Assembly: GCA_016223145.1 (NCBI GenBank)
Contig: JACRPN010000011.1
Location: forward strand, 186,001-250,000
DNA length: 64,000 nt
Direction of reading: 5' to 3'
Source of the DNA: Armatimonadota bacterium
Lineage (GTDB): Bacteria > Armatimonadota > Fimbriimonadia > Fimbriimonadales > Fimbriimonadaceae
A program made the translations under genes and the position numbers. Below, piece after piece: positions 9,379-63,698 of this stretch; position 1 is the first letter of the stretch, and the number at the start of each line of letters is the position of its first letter. Under the pieces are notes generated by a model that was given only the letters and a program-made list of their open reading frames with translations, was not told where the DNA came from and did not search any database.

Positions 9379-9464
9379 GCCCGCAGGGCCGACCTGTTGC
9401 AGCGAAGGGCGCCAGCCCTGGTGAACCGGCCGCACAAACCGAAGAGGCCTGTAGGGCCGACCTA
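9379..9464. repeat. Inverted repeat flanking the RAYT gene, left copy
   Basis: About 86 bp beginning GGCCCGCAGGGCCGAC, with AGGGCGCCAGCCCT in the middle and ending CCTGTAGGGCCGACCTA, which includes the transposase stop codon. The reverse complement of 9918-10003 matches it along the whole length with scattered changes. Each copy contains at least two short palindromes of REP type. Confidence 0.8.
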
Positions 9465-9908
9465 ATCCCACACGTAACGGTCGTCGAACTCGATCCCGGC
9501 TATCCGCAAAAGCTCCCGAAACTCCTCCTGAAACGACACCTTCCGGTGATGCTCCTCTTGGCCTTGGATGTACCGGACGCACGCGGCCACCCCATCCTCG
9601 TTCAACGACATAGCCCCATATCCCGCCTGCCAGGCAAAGGATGGCAGACCCTTCGACTTGAGCCACCGGGAGCTCGACGACTTCACCTTTTCGACGACCT
9701 CTGCTATCGTCAACGTGCGCGAGAGTCGAAAGAGGATGTGCACATGATCTTCGACGCCGCCGACCTGAAGCACTGGACAGTTCAGGTTCTTCAGGACCGT
9801 CGCCAGATAGGGATAGAGCTCTTCGCGGATTGCGGGTGCCAACGCAGGATCTCTGGCTTTGGTGGAGAACACCAGGTGCACCAGGATGTTGGAGAGCGAC
9901 TGCGGCAT
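9462..9908 (-). CDS. IS200/IS605-type (REP-associated) tyrosine transposase
   Basis: 148 residues, the usual length for a Y1 transposase. It shows the HUH metal-binding motif in GVEDHVHILFRL (near residue 55) and the catalytic tyrosine helix in ACVRYIQGQEEHHRK (near 116), the RYIQ.QE.HH signature of RAYT and IS200-like enzymes. The protein nicks single-stranded DNA at hairpins. The flanking 86-bp imperfect inverted repeats with palindromes suggest an intact element of the REP/RAYT kind, probably domesticated or low-copy, since no second transposase is present in the window. There is no clear ribosome site before the ATG. Confidence 0.9.
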   Translation of the reverse strand: MPQSLSNILVHLVFSTKARDPALAPAIREELYPYLATVLKNLNCPVLQVGGVEDHVHILFRLSRTLTIAEVVEKVKSSSSRWLKSKGLPSFAWQAGYGAMSLNEDGVAACVRYIQGQEEHHRKVSFQEEFRELLRIAGIEFDDRYVWD

Positions 9909-10007: not shown

Positions 10008-10406
10008 CTACCACATTCTCACTCGGAGCAATTCCTCAGATGGTTGGTTTCCGGTCTTTCGTATGAAAGTTAAATAAGAACGCCTCTTATCGACAACGAT
10101 GCTAACCATGTCTGGCGCGATGCACTCGAAGCGGAATTTCAAGGAAAGCTGCTCTCTCGAACTGCCACGGTAGAGGATAAAAGTCGCCTGCCCAACGCTG
10201 ACTTCTTGCCGAGGAATCCTAACTAGGAAGGCATAGTGTCCTTCTTTGGAGTAATCAGTAATAACTGCACCCCATGTTTGGGCTTGAGCCTTAAGCTCCG
10301 CTATCCCAAGAGTCCGGTAACTAATCGACCAGTCGTCTGAGTGCTGAACTTGTGCGACCCCGAACAACATGCAGGCAGTCACTAATAGGCAAAGTCGCTC
10401 TATCAC
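10008..10406 (-). CDS. Candidate RHS immunity protein, secreted
   Basis: 132 residues when started at GTG 10406, which overlaps the RHS stop codon by 4 bp (GTGA) and gives a clean signal peptide (MIERLCLLVTACMLFGVAQV). An ATG at 10442 in the same frame would add 12 residues before this and is less natural. The mature part is beta-rich with no recognisable domain: ISYRTLGIAELKAQAQTWGA, then TFILYRGSSREQLSLKFRFE. The overlap, opposite-of-core base composition and position directly behind an RHS tip argue for an immunity or partner protein acting in the periplasm. No homologue comes to mind. Confidence 0.5.
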   Translation of the reverse strand: MIERLCLLVTACMLFGVAQVQHSDDWSISYRTLGIAELKAQAQTWGAVITDYSKEGHYAFLVRIPRQEVSVGQATFILYRGSSREQLSLKFRFECIAPDMVSIVVDKRRSYLTFIRKTGNQPSEELLRVRMW

Positions 10407-11305
10407 CACTTGGGTCGCCTCTTGGCACAATAGGTGCCGCATTTGGTTGTGTAAATTGGAGTCCAGAATGGATCGTGAGGCGCAGGCCACCCTGTCGGAT
10501 AGAAGTTATGTCGTGTCGGATGCGCGGCATGGTAATCTGGGTCAATGATTCCAACACATTCGGGTTGAACTGGCCTTTCGCCATGCTTGTCAGACCAACT
10601 GCCGTTGGCATCTTGCCTGATAAAGTGATAGTCCGGATATTGGGAGATGTATACCTTTACTTTGTAATAGCCCACAGGGCAGCGACCGTTTGAAGGAAGG
10701 TTAATCAAGGCTCCGTCGCGTTTTGCCATCGCGACAAGGTAGGAACAATTGCTAGTTAGCATGTCGGGATTTGGGGCCGGTCCTTGCCCTGACACGTATG
10801 ATTGCCATCCCGGACGAAAGCTAAAATCCACATCACATGCAGCAGTATAGCAGTTGTGATCACGATCATTGCGGTCATAGATAGGAGGTGCAGCTTGTTT
10901 AAGCATAACCCTAATGCCTAACGAGGACTGATAGCCACTAGTATCAACTGACGTAGTCGGCTGATTCGAGGCATAGCCATAGGCAGGCTCGGCGGGCCAA
11001 AACGGGTCCACGGTCATCCATCGGCCGTTAACCTGCTGCAATTCTCGTGCTCGAACATACGTCCGAGTTGTGGAGTCTCGATAATAGCCAAGCGTGCCGC
11101 CGAACTTGAACGGCGTTACACTAGATCCAGTTGAAGATCTGATTTCGCCAAAGGGCCAATAGATGTAAGTGTCCGTCTTCGTTTGTGTGCTGTCCAGCAA
11201 CGCCACTGTGTTCCCTTGCGGGTCGGGAACGTAGTCCCGCTCGACGCCATTGCGAACCTCGGAGACGACCTCACCGTCGATCACGCAATAATCTGTCACT
11301 GCCAT
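10403..11305 (-). CDS. Short RHS-repeat core protein with variable C-terminal domain (toxin-like tip)
   Basis: 300 residues; full RHS proteins exceed 1000. It opens inside the RHS core: RDYVPDPQGNTVALLDS, TYIYWPFGEIRSSTG, then GGTLGYYRDSTTRTYVRARE and NGRWMTVDPFWPAEPAYGYA, the pattern that ends the RHS shell. From about residue 125 an unrelated domain follows, with six or more cysteines and the segment YPDYHFIRQDANGSWSDKHG, which resembles a DYHFYRQD..G.WSHK.G motif I know from secreted proteins of unknown function. A GAGGGAG ribosome site 4-5 nt before the ATG shows the short form is translated as such, as in displaced orphan tips. Base composition is visibly more AT-rich than the neighbours, supporting transfer. 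No signal peptide. Confidence 0.75.
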   Translation of the reverse strand: MAVTDYCVIDGEVVSEVRNGVERDYVPDPQGNTVALLDSTQTKTDTYIYWPFGEIRSSTGSSVTPFKFGGTLGYYRDSTTRTYVRARELQQVNGRWMTVDPFWPAEPAYGYASNQPTTSVDTSGYQSSLGIRVMLKQAAPPIYDRNDRDHNCYTAACDVDFSFRPGWQSYVSGQGPAPNPDMLTSNCSYLVAMAKRDGALINLPSNGRCPVGYYKVKVYISQYPDYHFIRQDANGSWSDKHGERPVQPECVGIIDPDYHAAHPTRHNFYPTGWPAPHDPFWTPIYTTKCGTYCAKRRPKW

Positions 11306-11475
11306 TTTCGACTCCCTCTGATGCGTCCGATCTCCCGGTCAGTATAGCAGGGGTATGGATCGGTCCACAAGTGGTTTTTGATATCGACCGTGTTCTGTTC
11401 GCACTTGTCCCTTATGCCACATGGTCGAAGGGCGCCCGTCCCCGAATTCCTCCCCAGGTACACTGAACTCCCCCA

Positions 11476-52530: not shown

Positions 52531-52866
52531 TCAGCGCTTGCGCGCGATCAGTTCATATGCGGTCTTCAGGATCTGCTCGACCTCGTCCCAATGCACCGGC
52601 ACATCCAGATACACCCCGATCCAGCCTCTGGGCCCAACGTAGGGCGGCCGGAAGAAGCGTTCCGGCTCGCTCGCAACAAGCATCTCCTGAACCCCCTCCG
52701 GCGCGGCGCAAACGAACGCGACGCGGTCGCTGTGATGGTGGTCCCAGAGCATCGCAAAAGAGCGCTTTTTGACGAACCAAGTTGGCTCGCCATGGCTCAT
52801 TCGCTCCTCGACGAAGGGCAGCGAACGGCAGATTTCGCGGAGCTTGGGTGGCGGAACTCGTTCCAT
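52531..52866 (-). CDS. MmcQ/YjbR family protein
   Basis: 111 residues. CyaY-like fold: LREICRSLPFVEERMSHGEP, TWFVKKRSFAMLWDHHHSDR, VAFVCAAPEGVQEMLVASEP, then GPRGWIGVYLDVPVHWDEVE and a helix. Members may bind DNA, but the role is unproved. The frame upstream of ATG 52866 runs through ECRMPNAV-type repeat codons, so I do not extend it. It marks the last clearly core-like gene before the island. Confidence 0.85.
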   Translation of the reverse strand: MERVPPPKLREICRSLPFVEERMSHGEPTWFVKKRSFAMLWDHHHSDRVAFVCAAPEGVQEMLVASEPERFFRPPYVGPRGWIGVYLDVPVHWDEVEQILKTAYELIARKR

Positions 52867-53323
52867 GATGGCTGGGTGAAACGGGCAAGGCCTGGTGGAT
52901 GCGGATTCCTGGTCCGGTACCGCATTCGGCATCCGACATTCGACATCAAAGGGAACCAAGAGTGGCTGCCCGTCTTGGATGCAATTCGAACTTCTGTTAG
53001 CTCGTGAGGTACGCAAACCCACATATAGTCGCTGAGCAGGAAATGACCCGCGGCCCCGAGCTCCGCAGTTTCGCCGATGGTTGACCAGGAGGCTCACGGA
53101 ATCAAAAGGGGATGCCCTTGTGGGTACCTATTGGGACCTTAGGGCACCAGGTGAGGCCTGGATAAGGGTCTACTAGATACATTTAGCACCAGACGGTGAT
53201 TCGCGCTAGTGAGCCTCGAGGAGTCGCGCGCTCGGCTCAGGCCAGGTAACTTTGGGCCAAATCTGAACGGGACATCGTAGCCGATTCAGTAAACTGACCC
53301 GAATTCGAAGAGGTACGACGCGG
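52867..53323. other. 457-bp intergenic region at the left edge of the island
   Basis: No gene supported. A short CATTCGGCATCCGACATTCG repeat lies at 52922-52941. Composition becomes more AT-rich rightward. GAAGAGGT before the ATG at 53324 is a plausible ribosome site. I see no tRNA and no attachment-site duplication. Confidence 0.5.
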
Positions 53324-54790
53324 ATGCCCGAGATAGACCCCACAACATTCGAGAACCTCTTTTCCAGGTGCCTCTTTTGCGACGAGGTTCGGGAAGAGCC
53401 GTATCAGGACGGCGTCCGGGAATGTCCAAACCCTAAGTGTCCGTCGGCCGAACTCATTCCACCGGCAGAACGCCCGTATTACGTCAGCCTTGTGCCCGAC
53501 TTTTCCGGAAGCAACGTGGCGAAGACCGCCCGCCAAGAGCAGTTTGAAGTCGAAAACGGTCCCGCACCACGGCTCAATGGGAATAGACCGTCCTTCGAAC
53601 ACATGCCTCCAACTGATGGCAAGTACGGCGTGGCCGACCTCTTCTCGTTGGAGAAGGTGCTGTCGCCTGAACGCACACTAAGTCGAGGCGAGCATTTCGG
53701 GTGGGCATTCCAGTACCCCTATAAGCAAGATCTACTATCTATGAAGTACGGGCTTCGATGCGGCAATAGCGACCTGATAACAGGAGAGGACTTGTACGGT
53801 TTTCAAGCCGACGTCCTAGATCTTAGCGGCTATGCCTATTCTCTCAGCCTGAAGGACCTTAGATCATGGGCAATAATCAACGTCGCTCTGGAACGCGGAT
53901 TCAAGCATCTAGCGCTTTGGACGGCTGGCAACGCAGGCTATAGTCTGGCAAGGCTTGCTTACGTGGTGAACCGCCGCCTTCCAGAGAGTGAGCGAATTCA
54001 AGTGTACTGCATTGTGGAAGCTGGATTAGAGAAGTCCATCCGGTTAGAGTTGAGAAGATGGCAAGCAGAGGTTGTTAAGGACGTTAGGATCAATTCTAGT
54101 AGTGCACCAATACTGTCAAACAAGGATGTTTGGACTCTGATCGAGAAGAACACTGGGAAGGCTATACCTGAGAGAGAGCGGTGGCATGTCACTGACGGGT
54201 GGGACGGTGTCGGCATTATGATGTACTACCTATTAGCTCTGCAAGTACTCAAGCGCGAGTCCGCGACATCTGACACATACGATGCCGTCATCGTTCCAGT
54301 TGGAAGCGGTGACTTGTTTGCGGGCTTCTTGCTTGCGCTTCGCGACGCTTACACTGAGAAAGCCCCAAAACTGATCGCGGCTGTCCCTCCTGCGGGCGAG
54401 AACATTTTTACGACCTTGAGGGCGCGAAGAAGGTCTGGTGGTTCAACGGCTGCCGGAAAGCTCCAAGGAACCTACTCGCCTCTGGCAAAGGCGCTCCTTC
54501 ACCTAAAGGACCGGAATCGCTTCCAAGTGGAGGAGGTGGACGACATCAACCATAGGAAGGGCGCGCAGCTCGTATTGAATCGTAAGCCATATCCCTTATT
54601 GCCGGCCGAGCCGTCAGCCTTGCTTGCATTTGGGGCACTCTGTCAATTCGGTGATTCCCTGCAACGCTCGAGAAGCCGGTTTAATTCCTGGTCATTGGAC
54701 TCTCGAGTCTTGGTAGTCAGTTCCGGGTGCGGTGTTACGCCATTGGGTGAACAGAAGTGGCTCGAAGCTTGTTGGAATGATACGATCTGA
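53324..54790 (+). CDS. PLP-dependent threonine synthase/cysteine synthase-like enzyme with zinc ribbon
   Basis: 488 residues. N-terminal zinc ribbon: Cys16 and Cys19 (CLFC) and Cys34 and Cys39 (CPNPKC). Fold type II PLP enzyme: candidate Schiff-base Lys177 in LSLKDLRSWAII, substrate or phosphate loop WTAGNAGYSLARLA (200-213), glycine loop VIVPVGSGDLFAGF (321-334), and an EPSALLAFGA helix and SSGCGV at the end, as in threonine synthase and cysteine synthase. The middle (residues 40-165) is longer than usual. Substrate unknown; in a peptide pathway it could make a beta-substituted alanine. It stands alone on its strand ahead of the divergent region, with lower GC than the core. Confidence 0.75.
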   Translation: MPEIDPTTFENLFSRCLFCDEVREEPYQDGVRECPNPKCPSAELIPPAERPYYVSLVPDFSGSNVAKTARQEQFEVENGPAPRLNGNRPSFEHMPPTDGKYGVADLFSLEKVLSPERTLSRGEHFGWAFQYPYKQDLLSMKYGLRCGNSDLITGEDLYGFQADVLDLSGYAYSLSLKDLRSWAIINVALERGFKHLALWTAGNAGYSLARLAYVVNRRLPESERIQVYCIVEAGLEKSIRLELRRWQAEVVKDVRINSSSAPILSNKDVWTLIEKNTGKAIPERERWHVTDGWDGVGIMMYYLLALQVLKRESATSDTYDAVIVPVGSGDLFAGFLLALRDAYTEKAPKLIAAVPPAGENIFTTLRARRRSGGSTAAGKLQGTYSPLAKALLHLKDRNRFQVEEVDDINHRKGAQLVLNRKPYPLLPAEPSALLAFGALCQFGDSLQRSRSRFNSWSLDSRVLVVSSGCGVTPLGEQKWLEACWNDTI

Positions 54791-54807
54791 AGATGAACGC
54801 CTATCGG

Positions 54808-55725
54808 TTATATGTTGTGGATCCCATAAAGCCGCTCCCCTTTTGCCGAGAGTTCGTCCAAGAAAGCCATTATGTCTACTAGAGAGGTCTCTGGAAGCTT
54901 CAATCTGATGTACGGTGAATCTTGAAGCTCTTCGTCGGAAAACTCCACGATGTTCATGAGCTCCGCCCCTGCCAGGCAAAAGCCAGTTGTGTTTGGGGGA
55001 TGCGTTCGATTGAATACGACAACGCTGGGGACGCAATAGGCCGAATCCGCTACATACACTTGAAGTGCTCCTTGCGCCGAATGTTCCTGGATACGAAGGG
55101 CTGCCTTCCGCGGGATGAGCGGATCTCCGGCGGGATTGCCAAAGGTCGCACCAATAGCGAGGTTGAACACGGATTCCAACCACGCCTGTGCAGCCTTGTT
55201 GCTGGGCACGGCAACCATTAGATTCCAAGTTAGTGGATGATTCGAAGCGCCCTGCTCGAAGAGGCCAAGTCGCTTCATCAAGACTGGCGTGAGCGGATTT
55301 GAGCGAACCGACCTTGGTGAGGTCTCACCGGCTCGAAGAGTTATCAGGGCGTCCACGCTCCGTTCCGCTAAGGCGGCGAGCCGCCTCTTCAATCCCTCCT
55401 TTCGACCCCGCAACTTTGGTCGACGACCATCAATGGCAATATCAACTTCCTGCTCCCAGACGATTCGGTCAGGCTCCGCAATGCCCTCTAGCTTCTGGCT
55501 GAGGAGTGCTCTCAAAGCGACTTGAAGGCTTGAGTCACAAGGGCGCTGACCGCTGAAAACGAGGGAAAGGTAAGCGGCGGCGCTTCGCGCCGATCTGAAC
55601 CCATGCCGTTTGCCGACTGCTGGCTCCCATTGAAACAACGCTGTCCCAAGTTCCGCAAGGCTACGATATGCCGGTACGCCGCTTGGCTTTGGCTTGCGAA
55701 GGAACACCCATGAGAGATCGTTCAT
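54808..55725 (-). CDS. Unknown protein with possible N-terminal HTH, candidate regulator
   Basis: 305 residues, no signal or membrane segment. Residues 42-78 (RSARSAAAYLSLVFSGQRPC, DSSLQVALRALLSQKLE) look like an XRE-type helix-turn-helix with the phrase LSxxFSGxRP. The remainder (NLMVAVPSNKAAQAWLESVF, GALQVYVADSAYCVPSVVVF) is alpha/beta and unknown. TTTACT lies 6 nt before the ATG. It is divergent from the operon at 56174, sharing a region with inverted and direct repeats; hence a regulator is likely, but this is inference. Confidence 0.55.
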   Translation of the reverse strand: MNDLSWVFLRKPKPSGVPAYRSLAELGTALFQWEPAVGKRHGFRSARSAAAYLSLVFSGQRPCDSSLQVALRALLSQKLEGIAEPDRIVWEQEVDIAIDGRRPKLRGRKEGLKRRLAALAERSVDALITLRAGETSPRSVRSNPLTPVLMKRLGLFEQGASNHPLTWNLMVAVPSNKAAQAWLESVFNLAIGATFGNPAGDPLIPRKAALRIQEHSAQGALQVYVADSAYCVPSVVVFNRTHPPNTTGFCLAGAELMNIVEFSDEELQDSPYIRLKLPETSLVDIMAFLDELSAKGERLYGIHNI

Positions 55726-58307: not shown

Positions 58308-59038
58308 TGAGGCCGTTGCAGCCCATCCCGGAGATCGACGACACTGCCATGAATGATGTCGTGATCGACGAGCAAGGAGAGCGCCTGGTCCCAGTTGTTG
58401 ACTGTCAACGTATCTGGACGCTTCCCGCCTATCACCTTCAGGGATACTCCTCCGCGCCTCCTGAGGTCATGTTGCGAGAAGGGGCGCGAAACGCTCTGGC
58501 CGGAGCTACGAAGAAGCTCCCTGATGGGATCGGCTTCCTGGTGTGGGACGGCCTTCGCAATCTAGCAACTCAGCAGGAGATTGCACTGAGATTCGAAGGG
58601 TCAGAAGTCATGTTGTCCATACCACATGGCGAGCGAGCCAGCGTGCTGAACCAATACGTGTCACCTGTTCCAGTTTCGGAAGACGAGTTCTTCTTGAGTC
58701 CACCACCACACACGACAGGTGGAGCGGTGGACCTAACGCTCTGTGATGAAAAGGGAGTGCCGCTGGATATGGGTGCGGACTTCGATGAGTTTGGGACAGT
58801 CTCATGGCTGTGTCACTACGAAGACGTGGACAACGTCTCAGACGAAAACGGCCGATACAGGCAAAGTATGCGGCGACTGCTGTACTGGACAATGGTTGAA
58901 GCCGGATTTGCGCCATATCCGTGGGAGTATTGGCACTATGAATTTGGAACGCAGCGTGCAGCAGCATTTCACGGAAAAGGAGTTGCAGATTATGGTCCGG
59001 CTGTCGCATTCCAACGCTTTTCGGGTGCACTTCGATGA
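58307..59038 (+). CDS. D-Ala-D-Ala dipeptidase (VanX/DdpX family)
   Basis: 243 residues. Zinc dipeptidase of the M15D type: His135 and Asp142 in PPPHTTGGAVDLTL, catalytic Glu207 and zinc ligand His210 in WEYWHYEFG. LDMGADFDEFG near residue 153 is the VanX phrase that follows the zinc site. The enzyme hydrolyses D-Ala-D-Ala and relatives, in the cytoplasm as there is no signal. Its start overlaps the ligase stop (TGATG). Next to a Ddl-like ligase this is a VanA-VanX type combination without VanH. Confidence 0.93.
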   Translation: MRPLQPIPEIDDTAMNDVVIDEQGERLVPVVDCQRIWTLPAYHLQGYSSAPPEVMLREGARNALAGATKKLPDGIGFLVWDGLRNLATQQEIALRFEGSEVMLSIPHGERASVLNQYVSPVPVSEDEFFLSPPPHTTGGAVDLTLCDEKGVPLDMGADFDEFGTVSWLCHYEDVDNVSDENGRYRQSMRRLLYWTMVEAGFAPYPWEYWHYEFGTQRAAAFHGKGVADYGPAVAFQRFSGALR

Positions 59039-60730: not shown

Positions 60731-63698
60731 CTATGAAAGAACAACGCGAAGGCGCCTTGCCCTCGCTTTGAATGCCTCTTCGCCTCCCTCGAGGATTTCG
60801 CATACCTTCCTTCGCACGTATTCGCCCTCAAGTCCGCCGGCCTCGTAGCGAATCTCGGGCAGTTGCCCTGGACCATGCTCTCCGGCAGTTGCGACGATTA
60901 CCTGGTCGGCATCGGTGTTCACGACCAAGTTAGCGTTGTGAGTCACGATGATGATCTGTCTGCGTTTCCTTGAATCCCTGAATCGCTGTACGAGCTCATC
61001 GTAAACAGACTGGGGATCCAGATTCTCCTCTGGTTGGTCGATGATCAGGGGCCGGATGTCATCCTTGTCAATGGCCAGATATAGAAGTAGGAGCACTATT
61101 CCACGCGTCCCCGGGGACAAGCGCTCGATATCCACTCCGCCGTACTGGAGACCATAGGTGACCTTGATGTGGTCCGTTCCCAGCAACCACTCCCAAATCC
61201 GAGCGCCCCATTCCTGTGCGGTGAAAGAGTCAAGCCGATGCGCACGAATATCCTCTCGGTACTTTTCGATGAACGAATCCACGGCCTTGTCAGCCGCATT
61301 TGGTTCGCCCGATGCCCATGCGGCCAGCAATTCTTGCTCGGCAGCGGCTCTCAGCGTTCCCCTCCCCTTGAAAGGCCCGTCTTTGCGCAAGTCGAGCAAG
61401 CTCTCCCCACGCTCCACCCACCGATCGAGGTCCACGACGCGTCGAACGACAAACCTGAGCTTCCCCAAGGCGCCTCTCTCAGCTTCGAGGGCGTCGGTCA
61501 ACGGTGCATACAGCATTGAGAGCTCCGCCTGTAACTCGACGAACGTTTCGAATACTTGCCGGTAGACCTCTCGCCGTCCAAGACTGATCTTCTTGGTTTC
61601 CTCGTCCGCCTTCAGGGCAGTAGAAAGCTGTGACTTCAGACCTTCCATCTGCTTTTGTGCTTGCTGGATCTTGAGTGTCAGAGCAGTGAACCGCTTCGCA
61701 TTCTGCTGGTCAACGCCGATTAGCTTGGCCAAGCGGTCACTTTCAGCCTGCAACTGACATATCGTGAGACTATGCAAGTTCGCTTCATCCGGGAACATCG
61801 GCTCTGTCAGCTTGTCCTCTGGTTGCGGTTGAATAGCGCTGCCGAAAATGGCTGCAGAGCTCTTGGTCGCTGCTTCGAGCTTCCCGTTCACCATTTTGTC
61901 CGCTTCTTGTCCGATCTTCGGGGTGAATTTCTGCCATTCCTCGTCTTTGAGCCCAGCGTCTCGGCGTTGCTGCTTGAGATCGTCCAGGAATGCAACCGCA
62001 GTTCTAGTGCTAAATTGGTTAAGGTCACCTTGAAGCGACTTTAGCGCTCTCACCTTCTTCTGCTCGACTTCCCATGCCGCCTTGCGCGCTACAAGCGCAT
62101 GCTGAAGAGCTTCGTGGCGCCCAACCCGAGCTTCCTGATCCTTTGAGACCAAACGTCCTTTATCTTTCGAGTCTTGACCAATTGCCTTTTCGAGTTCTTC
62201 AATCTTCTTTGTAAGTTCGGGGATGGAAAACTTCAGTCTCCACTGCTCAAGTAACTGGTCTGTAAGGCGACTCAGTTCCGACTCATGACGCGTGCGCTGT
62301 TCGTTTATCCCAGAACAGCGCACAGCAAAGAGCTCCTCAAAGTCGTCCGCTCCCTCTCTGTCCGGCTCAGGATGGGAGACGAAGATCACCCTCTTTATCT
62401 CATCCAGCAGACGATCGGAAACGCCTTCAGACGAACAGGTCGTCCACGAACTGCTGAGAGAGGTATTGCACACGTCCGTCTTCGTACCCTTCGTCCGCCT
62501 CGAAGCTGGAGAGACTCCCACTGGTCTCCTCCTGGCTCTCCCACTTGACGGTAACGGCGGACTTGGTGAGGAAGCTCTTGGCGCGACGAATGAAGGAACG
62601 TTCATTTACGTGAGCACTCATGGAGTACGATCCAACAGCCATGAAGTCGGCTAGCGCGGTCTTTCCAGACCCACGTGCTCCGATGATCGCAACCAATCCA
62701 GGGTTGAGCGGAAGCTCATTGGGGATCATCCACGGGACATTGGTTACGCGAAGACTAGTGATTGTCTGTCCGACCAGACCGCCTCGTGGAGGTACGGAAC
62801 CGATGAAGGCGCGTTCTTCGGGTTCAATGCAGGCCTGTCTCAAGGACTCGAAAGTTACGTCGCCCTTGATCCAACACAATCTGCCCTCGTCGGGAACCCC
62901 CAACTTGTCCACGGAATGCGCGTCGCAACCATGTATACAAGGCTTCAGAGAGCGGTACCTCTTGATCACCTGATCGGCGGACAGCACTCCCTTTCCTGAC
63001 CAGAAGAGGGCATCCTTGGGGTTACCCGAGAAAATCAGCTGCGACGCTGACTCAATGTTTATTCTCAGCGCCTCAAAGGCATGATCCGGCGTCGCCACGC
63101 CTGAGGTCCCGTCATTCGTTGACACAGCGGCACCGATGAGCAGGTTCTGCTGAGCCCAACTGCTCTTCTTCAGCTCATCTTCAAGTGCTGGCAGCGAGAG
63201 CTTGAACTGATTGACGCCAACGAAGAGCGCTTTGGCTTCGTCTGCAACAGAGGAATCGACAGATTTGCCTAACTTGACGAGCTCAGAGCGAGAACAGGCG
63301 TAATCATCGCCTTTGTAGCGAAACTTAAGGCGACCAAGAAATCGCTTGATCTCGGCAACGTGGTTTGGGTCATCAGGGGAGAACAGGAGATGAACGTTCA
63401 CGCCCTTTCCCTTGACTGTCCCGATATCGAGCCTGGCCTCAACATTGGGGAAGAGCATGTCAACCTCAGGCAGCTTGCCCTCCTGTTTCTTCTTGACAAG
63501 CTCTTCATAAAGCTCGATCGACAGGTAATCGGTCACGCCCAAGGCGCGAATTGGGGGATCGCAAGACGCGATCGCTTTGCAGTAGTCATCCAGACTCGTT
63601 GCGCCAAACTGGTCATTGAGAATCGTCCCTGGCGCGTGCACATGCGGTTCCCATCTGTGCCACAGCGACCCCGCAGGATTCATCGTACGGGTCGTCAT
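60731..63698 (-). pseudogene. PHP-SMC-like ATPase (TrlF type), split by a +1 frameshift
   Basis: Two frames together give about 987 residues. The first part (63698 to the TGA at 62427, 423 residues) has a PHP domain (SLWHRWEPHVHAPGTILNDQ, with His-x-His) and Walker A (AIIGARGSGKTALADF), ending VQYLSQQFVDDLFV. The next frame, displaced by +1, continues SSEGVSDRLLDEIKRVIF, long coiled coils (about 62350-61500) and the C-terminal ATPase half: LSPGTRGIVLLLLYLAI signature, PLIIDQPEENLDPQSVYDEL (Walker B) and IIIVTHNANLVVNTDADQ (His loop). One extra base near 62434-62445 explains it. Its start overlaps an upstream frame by ATGA. Known members are linked with defence; as read it is either broken, mis-sequenced or frameshifted. 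Confidence 0.85.

Follow-up and report, generated by a model that had tools for sequence, protein, structure and literature searches.

A probable toxin-immunity cartridge detached from an apparently split RHS gene system in Armatimonadota

In the excerpted literature, an RHS toxin is encoded as one large protein whose tip is swapped by DNA recombination, the two-part cocoon of the ABC toxins being the known exception. The window analyzed here, a whole stretch of 64 kb (G000:C11:186001-250000) from a genome of 3.87 Mb in 23 contigs, contains a gene that encodes only the end of such a protein, immediately followed by a second small gene. This raises the question of what an RHS tip of 300 residues is doing apart from a large RHS protein. 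As argued below, the two genes are probably a detached toxin-immunity cartridge belonging to a split RHS polymorphic toxin system.

The tip gene (P0002, positions 10403-11305, minus strand) is an ORF of 300 residues, the length given in the original prediction, and the ribosome site claimed for it is present as the Shine-Dalgarno-like string AGGGAG (11312-11317, minus strand), 6 nt 5' of the ATG. Residues 1-126 (10928-11305, minus strand) form the RHS half, made up of a conserved stand-alone start and the Rhs_assc_core, and residues 127-300 (10403-10927, minus strand) form the variable C-terminal domain, a putative papain-like cysteine hydrolase. The tip stop codon and the start of the partner gene (GTG, 10406) overlap as GTGA, as had been predicted, and the partner ORF runs to position 10008, encoding a candidate immunity protein of 132 residues (10008-10406, minus strand) with a hydrophobic N-terminal leader. 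The two genes together account exactly for the span 10008-11305. The tip, its domain boundary, its invariant residues, the coupling of the genes and the export leader of the partner are all evident at the level of sequence. Directly 3' of the module lies an IS200-like Y1 transposase (9462-9908, minus strand; PF01797, E 5.5e-22), which is taken as mobility context and not as a working part.

The original prediction also proposed that the module is of low GC and was acquired. The module has a GC content of 51.2% against 61.0% for the window, and none of 1255 segments of the same length, slid in steps of 50 over the whole 64-kb window, is as low. Synteny was compared in 6 of the 11 relatives with an IleRS match: the IleRS-LspA order is kept in 6/6, and the tip is absent from the ~1.5 kb upstream region in 6/6. 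The missing tip at this conserved locus fits an insertion, so that GC and synteny both support acquisition. The same genome yielded no further copy of either the variable domain or the partner, and the variable domain alone returns one match, itself. Other low-GC patches (52-55%) occur in the window at positions 52851-54901, 58351-58901 and 60951-62201.

In the RHS half, the Rhs_assc_core model TIGR03696 matches residues 49-124 (E 2.3e-9, 37.6 bits, cut-off 32.5), and a Pfam scan of the tip reports no match. An RHS-associated core scoring above its cut-off and adjoining a variable C-terminus is the arrangement expected of an RHS polymorphic toxin. The tip half ends in DTSG and contains D100 and D121, with a spacing of 21; in Tse15, a T6SS Rhs protein, the two aspartates of the autoprotease have a spacing of 22, according to the excerpted text of PMC11461821. 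A D-x(-x)-G motif occurs at the matching site in 55 of the 56 tips counted, as DPxG in 39 of those. The window tip has no apparent signal peptide. A profile of the first 125 tip residues (A5) matches 189 of 291 phylum genomes at E <= 1e-8. In 16 tip arrays the mean identity is 52-89% for the N-terminal halves and 15-27% for the C-terminal halves; a conserved N-terminal half joined to a divergent C-terminal half is the signature of polymorphic toxins. The description "orphan RHS tip" thus stands at the sequence level, but "orphan" undersells a large family often encoded with separate shell and tip genes.

The C-terminal domain was predicted to be new and Cys-rich. The segment YPDYHFIRQDANGSW and the cysteines are present, and neither Pfam nor NCBIfam models score above cut-off on the domain. 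The same searches on the domain family return no model over cut-off, so that sequence places it neither with the Tae amidases nor with Tox-PL. Pfam contains models of the Tox-PL1 class, and none of them reaches E <= 1 for any of the 19 members. Toxin and immunity family models from Pfam, NCBIfam and PADLOC report no match with the tip, the domain or the partner, and PDB sequence and profile searches with the domain give 0 matches. Hints of DUF7689 (E 0.1-0.12, in 2/6 and 1/19 members) are at chance level and were dropped.

Searching 291 phylum genomes with the domain gives some match at E <= 1 in 73, and convincing relatives (E 1e-7 to 1e-11, all <= 2e-7) in 6 genomes besides its own; the domain profile matches 7/291 at E <= 0.001, its own genome included. 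A scan of genome_contigs with the single sequence matched a pattern at 31 stretches, none of them coding for a relative. Scanning public genomes with the profile yields 19 loci out of 34 pattern matches, in Acidobacteria, Pseudoxanthomonas, Bacteroidota, Alphaproteobacteria, Firmicutes and others, and 5 of 10 pattern matches on viral contigs carry the domain. A tblastn search of homologues against plasmid and phage records adds a Rhizobium plasmid, a Streptomyces plasmid and one phage record. Across several phyla, the domain recurs on RHS tips, on one PAAR protein, on viral contigs and on non-RHS proteins. Residues N25, C26, C61, D99, H101, R104, D106, W111, K114, Y159 and C163 are invariant in 19/19 aligned members, to which P39, G40 and P130 are also common. 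Cys152 of the tip (domain C26; 10850-10852, minus strand) belongs to the invariant N-C pair and is the proposed nucleophile, and His227 (domain H101; 10625-10627, minus strand), within YPDYHF, is the proposed catalytic histidine.

Several of these loci show arrangements of their own. A PAAR protein (L086:899-1966; PF05488, E 2.6e-18) carries the variable domain at its C-terminus. On the viral contig IMGVR_UViG_3300001918_000026, a stand-alone RHS tip of 290 residues (L113:5557-6429) bears the same toxin domain, has a lipoprotein-like partner and sits at the contig end, behind tail-fibre-like genes. An Acidobacteria MAG (L081:1969-2418) encodes an apparently circularly permuted domain, the DYHWYRQD...C..C half preceding the NNCYSYACD half, behind an RHS frame broken just before it; an error of assembly may account for this. 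The non-RHS toxin domains at L087-L090, L092, L094, L095 and L098 are preceded, within the same protein, by a domain with an SGRPNPxWxL-like motif, which is also found as a separate gene behind the toxin domain, sometimes with a leader, at L088, L089, L097, L098 and L099. It is a candidate dedicated inhibitor; Pfam analysis of two of the fused proteins (L087 and L098) reports no match at E <= 0.01.

Structure prediction of the window domain gives a model of pLDDT 71.5, with 42 of 174 residues at or above 90; the homologue L094 is modelled at pLDDT 94.2 and pTM 0.88. Foldseek returns nothing at E <= 0.001 with the two models (best E 0.22 and 0.86), and its lists also contain trypsins and viral main proteases. 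VIA-align places Tae3 at the top for the window model (Z 4.2, rmsd 4.2, 88 aligned) and an NlpC/P60 endopeptidase at the top for the homologue (Z 5.0, rmsd 3.9, 101 aligned), both weak matches, as are all Z values here (<= 5.0), which the tool warns are common. For the homologue, the NlpC/P60 entry is followed by YopQ, a phage endolysin, MepS, Tse1 and Josephins, and the 50 matches listed are mostly NlpC/P60, Tae1, MepS and Josephin. Most of the VIA-align entries are, as we take them, papain-like; a lectin and a putative isomerase among those of the window model were not counted. Tae enzymes use their Cys-His site for catalysis, and export is a feature of the Tai immunity proteins. Since the structural matches are consistent and the cysteine (C26) and histidine (H101) are invariant in 19/19 members, a papain-like cysteine hydrolase is the best reading of the domain, short of proof, with the catalytic role of the two residues putative. 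The domain is read as a cysteine hydrolase that would act in the envelope and be restrained by its partner.

The partner was predicted to bear a signal peptide, and its N-terminus is indeed hydrophobic (maximum 13-residue Kyte-Doolittle mean 2.62). With this leader and the GTGA overlap, its designation as a coupled candidate immunity gene holds at the sequence level. An immunity gene directly downstream, as in RHS polymorphic toxins, is indicated by gene order, not by function, and export of the partner would be in keeping with a toxin that works in the envelope. In 12 of the 27 loci examined, the domain forms the end of an RHS or RHS-core-like protein. An ORF follows the domain in 11 of these 12, with a hydrophobic leader above threshold in 9; the partners of L083 and L085 lie below the threshold and have leaders that resemble signal peptides by eye, and the twelfth locus (L082) ends 92 bases past the domain. 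Outside RHS proteins, an ORF comes after the domain in 11 of 15 loci, with 5 of the ORFs above the hydrophobicity threshold, and is missing from 4. The occurrence of the domain in ordinary secreted proteins without partners, which had been named as evidence against the prediction, is thus seen in part: the domain does occur outside RHS proteins, and these 4/15 loci have no following ORF.

The same gene order holds for short tips in general. Of 55 usable short tips, 53 have behind them an ORF of 60 or more residues (control, 765/1100 random positions) and 41 an ORF with a hydrophobic N-terminus (control, 93/1100). A following ORF alone is weak evidence because 765/1100 random positions have one, whereas only 93/1100 have one with a hydrophobic leader. 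The partners are strongly divergent. A leave-one-out HMM test (alignment A2) recovers those of L083, L100, L101 and L027 weakly (E 2e-4 to 0.05); those of L084 and L085 are outscored by a shuffled decoy and those of L025 and L028 rank far down. The window partner is not recovered with the others in this test and has no detectable homology to them; elsewhere in the 291 genomes its best match has E 0.00995, which is treated as no match.

Is the window gene related to a complete RHS gene of its own genome? On the same contig, near C11:267 kb, an RHS frame of 1255 residues ends in LVWDGEDYVQERS and a stop codon, directly followed by a tip frame of 318 residues. A second shell frame, of 1096 residues, lies on C16, and the other tips form an array of four on C6 and a single gene on C13. 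No shell end or remnant is found upstream of the window tip, which is a detached tip. The longest exact stretch of DNA that it shares is 20 bp with the C13 tip, 9-11 bp with those on C6 and <= 10 bp with the two that are coupled to a shell, which leaves little for homologous exchange. In the C6 array (L146, G000:C6:198000-208500), an immunity-gene frame continues into a short shell remnant ending in WDGEDYLGEA and a stop, as if the cartridge bore a recombination arm at its end.

A shell frame that stops just before a tip is not confined to this genome. Upstream of many tips, the RHS frame stops as VWDGxDYLxE right at the tip start, and in 122 of 291 genomes a profile of this shell end (A6) has a match at E <= 1e-8. 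The 30 loci that score best, taken from as many genomes, comprise 28 that are split with a tip behind, 1 continuous and 1 stopping likewise at a contig edge; these 30 junction loci and the 20 array loci are among the top-scoring matches of profiles derived mainly from short tips or split shells, a sampling bias. The RHS frame is 574-1316 residues long in 16 of the 28 split loci and only 100-430 in the other 12, which may therefore be remnants and not working shells. Three split shells have 22 (L219), 21 (L151) and 13 (L220) Pfam RHS_repeat stretches. Production of a single protein by programmed frameshifting or stop read-through was rejected: across the 28 split loci, all three possible offsets between shell frame and tip frame occur (in 17, 9 and 2 loci), and recoding does not account for such variation.

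At 14 of 29 junctions the stop codon of the shell shares bases with the start codon of the tip, as TAATG or TGATG, and a stricter Shine-Dalgarno-like string stands at -20 to -5 in 19/29 junctions versus 66/1188 control ATGs. These strings are mostly inside the codons for YLGE, YLQE or YLQGR, the start signal of the tip often being written in the last codons of the shell. Of 56 short tips in the 20 array loci, 45 have an ATG at the homologous point (within 4 codons), 7 have GTG or TTG and 4 have no start; by comparison, 0/5 long frames have an ATG there. A Shine-Dalgarno-like four- or five-mer at -20 to -5 precedes 33/45 ATG tips versus 200/1348 random ATGs. The strict string is found at 21/29 tips with a shell end upstream versus 10/33 without, the window tip being among the latter 10 and the C13 tip not; the 33 of 62 tips scored as without a shell end are an upper bound because some carry eroded ones.

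Continuous RHS proteins run on in frame through the same sequence (WDGSDYLQSRTPSEVTTFSTVDAQIL...), and continuous genes with this site occur in G079, G082, G089, G135, G136 and G139, which include both same-genus genomes. In nine fully listed genomes, 28 of 117 tip matches lie in frames longer than 450 residues (hand count). The shell/tip split can be followed in the gene sequences of this genome and of many relatives. No account of a shell/tip split of RHS genes, or of Armatimonadota tips, was found in the open-access literature, including the available portions of PMC12419801 and PMC11461821.

Several known systems come close, as excerpts of the cited papers describe them. In the orphan rhs-CT/rhsI and cdiA-CT/cdiI pairs, too, a detached toxin piece with a short conserved remnant is followed by its immunity gene, sometimes in arrays (PMC3150448, PMC3967940). 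Signals for translation initiation are usually missing from orphan rhs-CTs (PMC3967940) and are missing from most orphan cdiA-CTs (PMC3150448). This classical feature is not what is observed here, the window tip having an ATG with AGGGAG and 45/56 tips an ATG. The short tips differ further in keeping their start codon at one homologous position, and even a copy directly behind a shell is a separate ORF. Tse15 likewise combines an RHS cage, aspartyl self-cleavage before the toxin and a variable toxin with immunity, features that are predicted here from sequence; its three pieces are, however, cut after translation (PMC11461821), whereas the break here is in the DNA, ~125 residues before the expected toxin cleavage site. 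Tse15 is also a T6SS effector, and no T6SS sheath gene was found here in 85 genomes of the family. In the ABC toxins, TcB and TcC are separate subunits that together make an RHS cocoon, a known two-part case in which the second subunit bears a hypervariable C-terminus and the division lies elsewhere than at the shell/tip split (PMC11435725). TcC, of ~107 kDa, is a large second RHS half forming the upper chamber (PMC11435725), in contrast to the tip, whose RHS part is limited to ~125 residues ahead of the toxin and which has a candidate immunity gene behind it. With regard to the domain itself, the Tae amidases (Tae1/Tse1, Tae3) and their Tai proteins also pair a small amidase domain with a dedicated immunity protein (PMC6099711), a putative parallel here. 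Tae entries are top or near-top structural matches, though weak (Z 4-5); the domain has no sequence match to them and an RHS context, whereas Tae is a free T6SS effector. Tox-PL1 is papain-like, with residues NC, H and D, and is found with RHS repeats (PMC3482391), but no Pfam model of its class recognizes the present family.

If the cartridge reading is correct, the tip, with its RHS-associated core and the aspartate pair that self-cleavage is expected to use, would complete an RHS shell by docking and so reach other cells. Self-cleavage near D121TSG would then release the putative cysteine hydrolase, which may cleave peptidoglycan or an envelope protein in the target envelope, and the exported partner would shield the envelope of the producer and its kin from sibling attack by neutralizing the domain. 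Delivery by a T6SS is unlikely in this bacterial family because the sheath gene VipB is found in 0/85 of its genomes. Phage-type sheath genes are present in 13/85, including both same-genus genomes and not the genome studied here. A bolder version, in which the shell and the tip, the latter with autoprotease and toxin, are separate proteins throughout Armatimonadota and free-standing tips at scattered genome sites, the window tip among them, are translated by themselves and dock in trans on a shared shell, is put forward only tentatively and is on balance doubtful; the rarer Shine-Dalgarno-like sites at shell-less tips (10/33 vs 21/29) count against free translation. If true, a single cell could load many toxins onto the same type of shell simultaneously, with no need to rearrange its DNA.

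The same scarcity of Shine-Dalgarno-like sites at detached tips favours another account, in which the tip is kept as a silent spare and is neither expressed nor delivered until homologous recombination has placed it behind a full shell, as with the Salmonella orphan rhs-CTs. Such recombination is reported for Salmonella in the excerpted source (PMC3967940), array tips often have shell remnants just upstream that resemble recombination arms, and in G079 a long RHS gene is followed by tips without an ATG at the start position. The window tip, however, has its own start and Shine-Dalgarno-like site, no upstream shell remnant and an exact match of <= 10 bp to the shell-coupled tips of its genome, and the ATG is kept at one position in 45/56 short tips. 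A silent recombination cassette is a real possibility, yet not the reading we favour.

It is also conceivable that only the partner is under selection, as an archived immunity guarding against relatives, with the tip carried along. This has been suggested for orphan cdiI genes in the part of PMC3150448 available, and the two genes overlap, with possible translational coupling of the partner to the tip; the explanation is unlikely, as the tip has lost neither its open frame nor the two aspartates nor any invariant toxin residue. Quite improbable, finally, is a non-toxic envelope enzyme, an ordinary secreted cysteine hydrolase that came to stand on RHS proteins by chance, with the partner as chaperone or regulator. 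The domain of L099, which has an apparent signal peptide and ChW repeats, that of L096, with a hydrophobic leader, and the 4/15 non-RHS loci without a following ORF would suit it, whereas the RHS and PAAR fusions and the ORF found after 11/12 RHS-type loci, 9 with a hydrophobic leader, argue against it.

The toxin-immunity cartridge thus remains the preferred reading, and its domain would represent an unnamed toxin family spread over several phyla and viral contigs. For the phylum, a gene split at a fixed point in many of its members would separate the delivery cage from the payload. Such a split would explain why detached tips keep their start codons, would make the loading of cages in trans testable and would offer a natural two-part RHS system for structural work.
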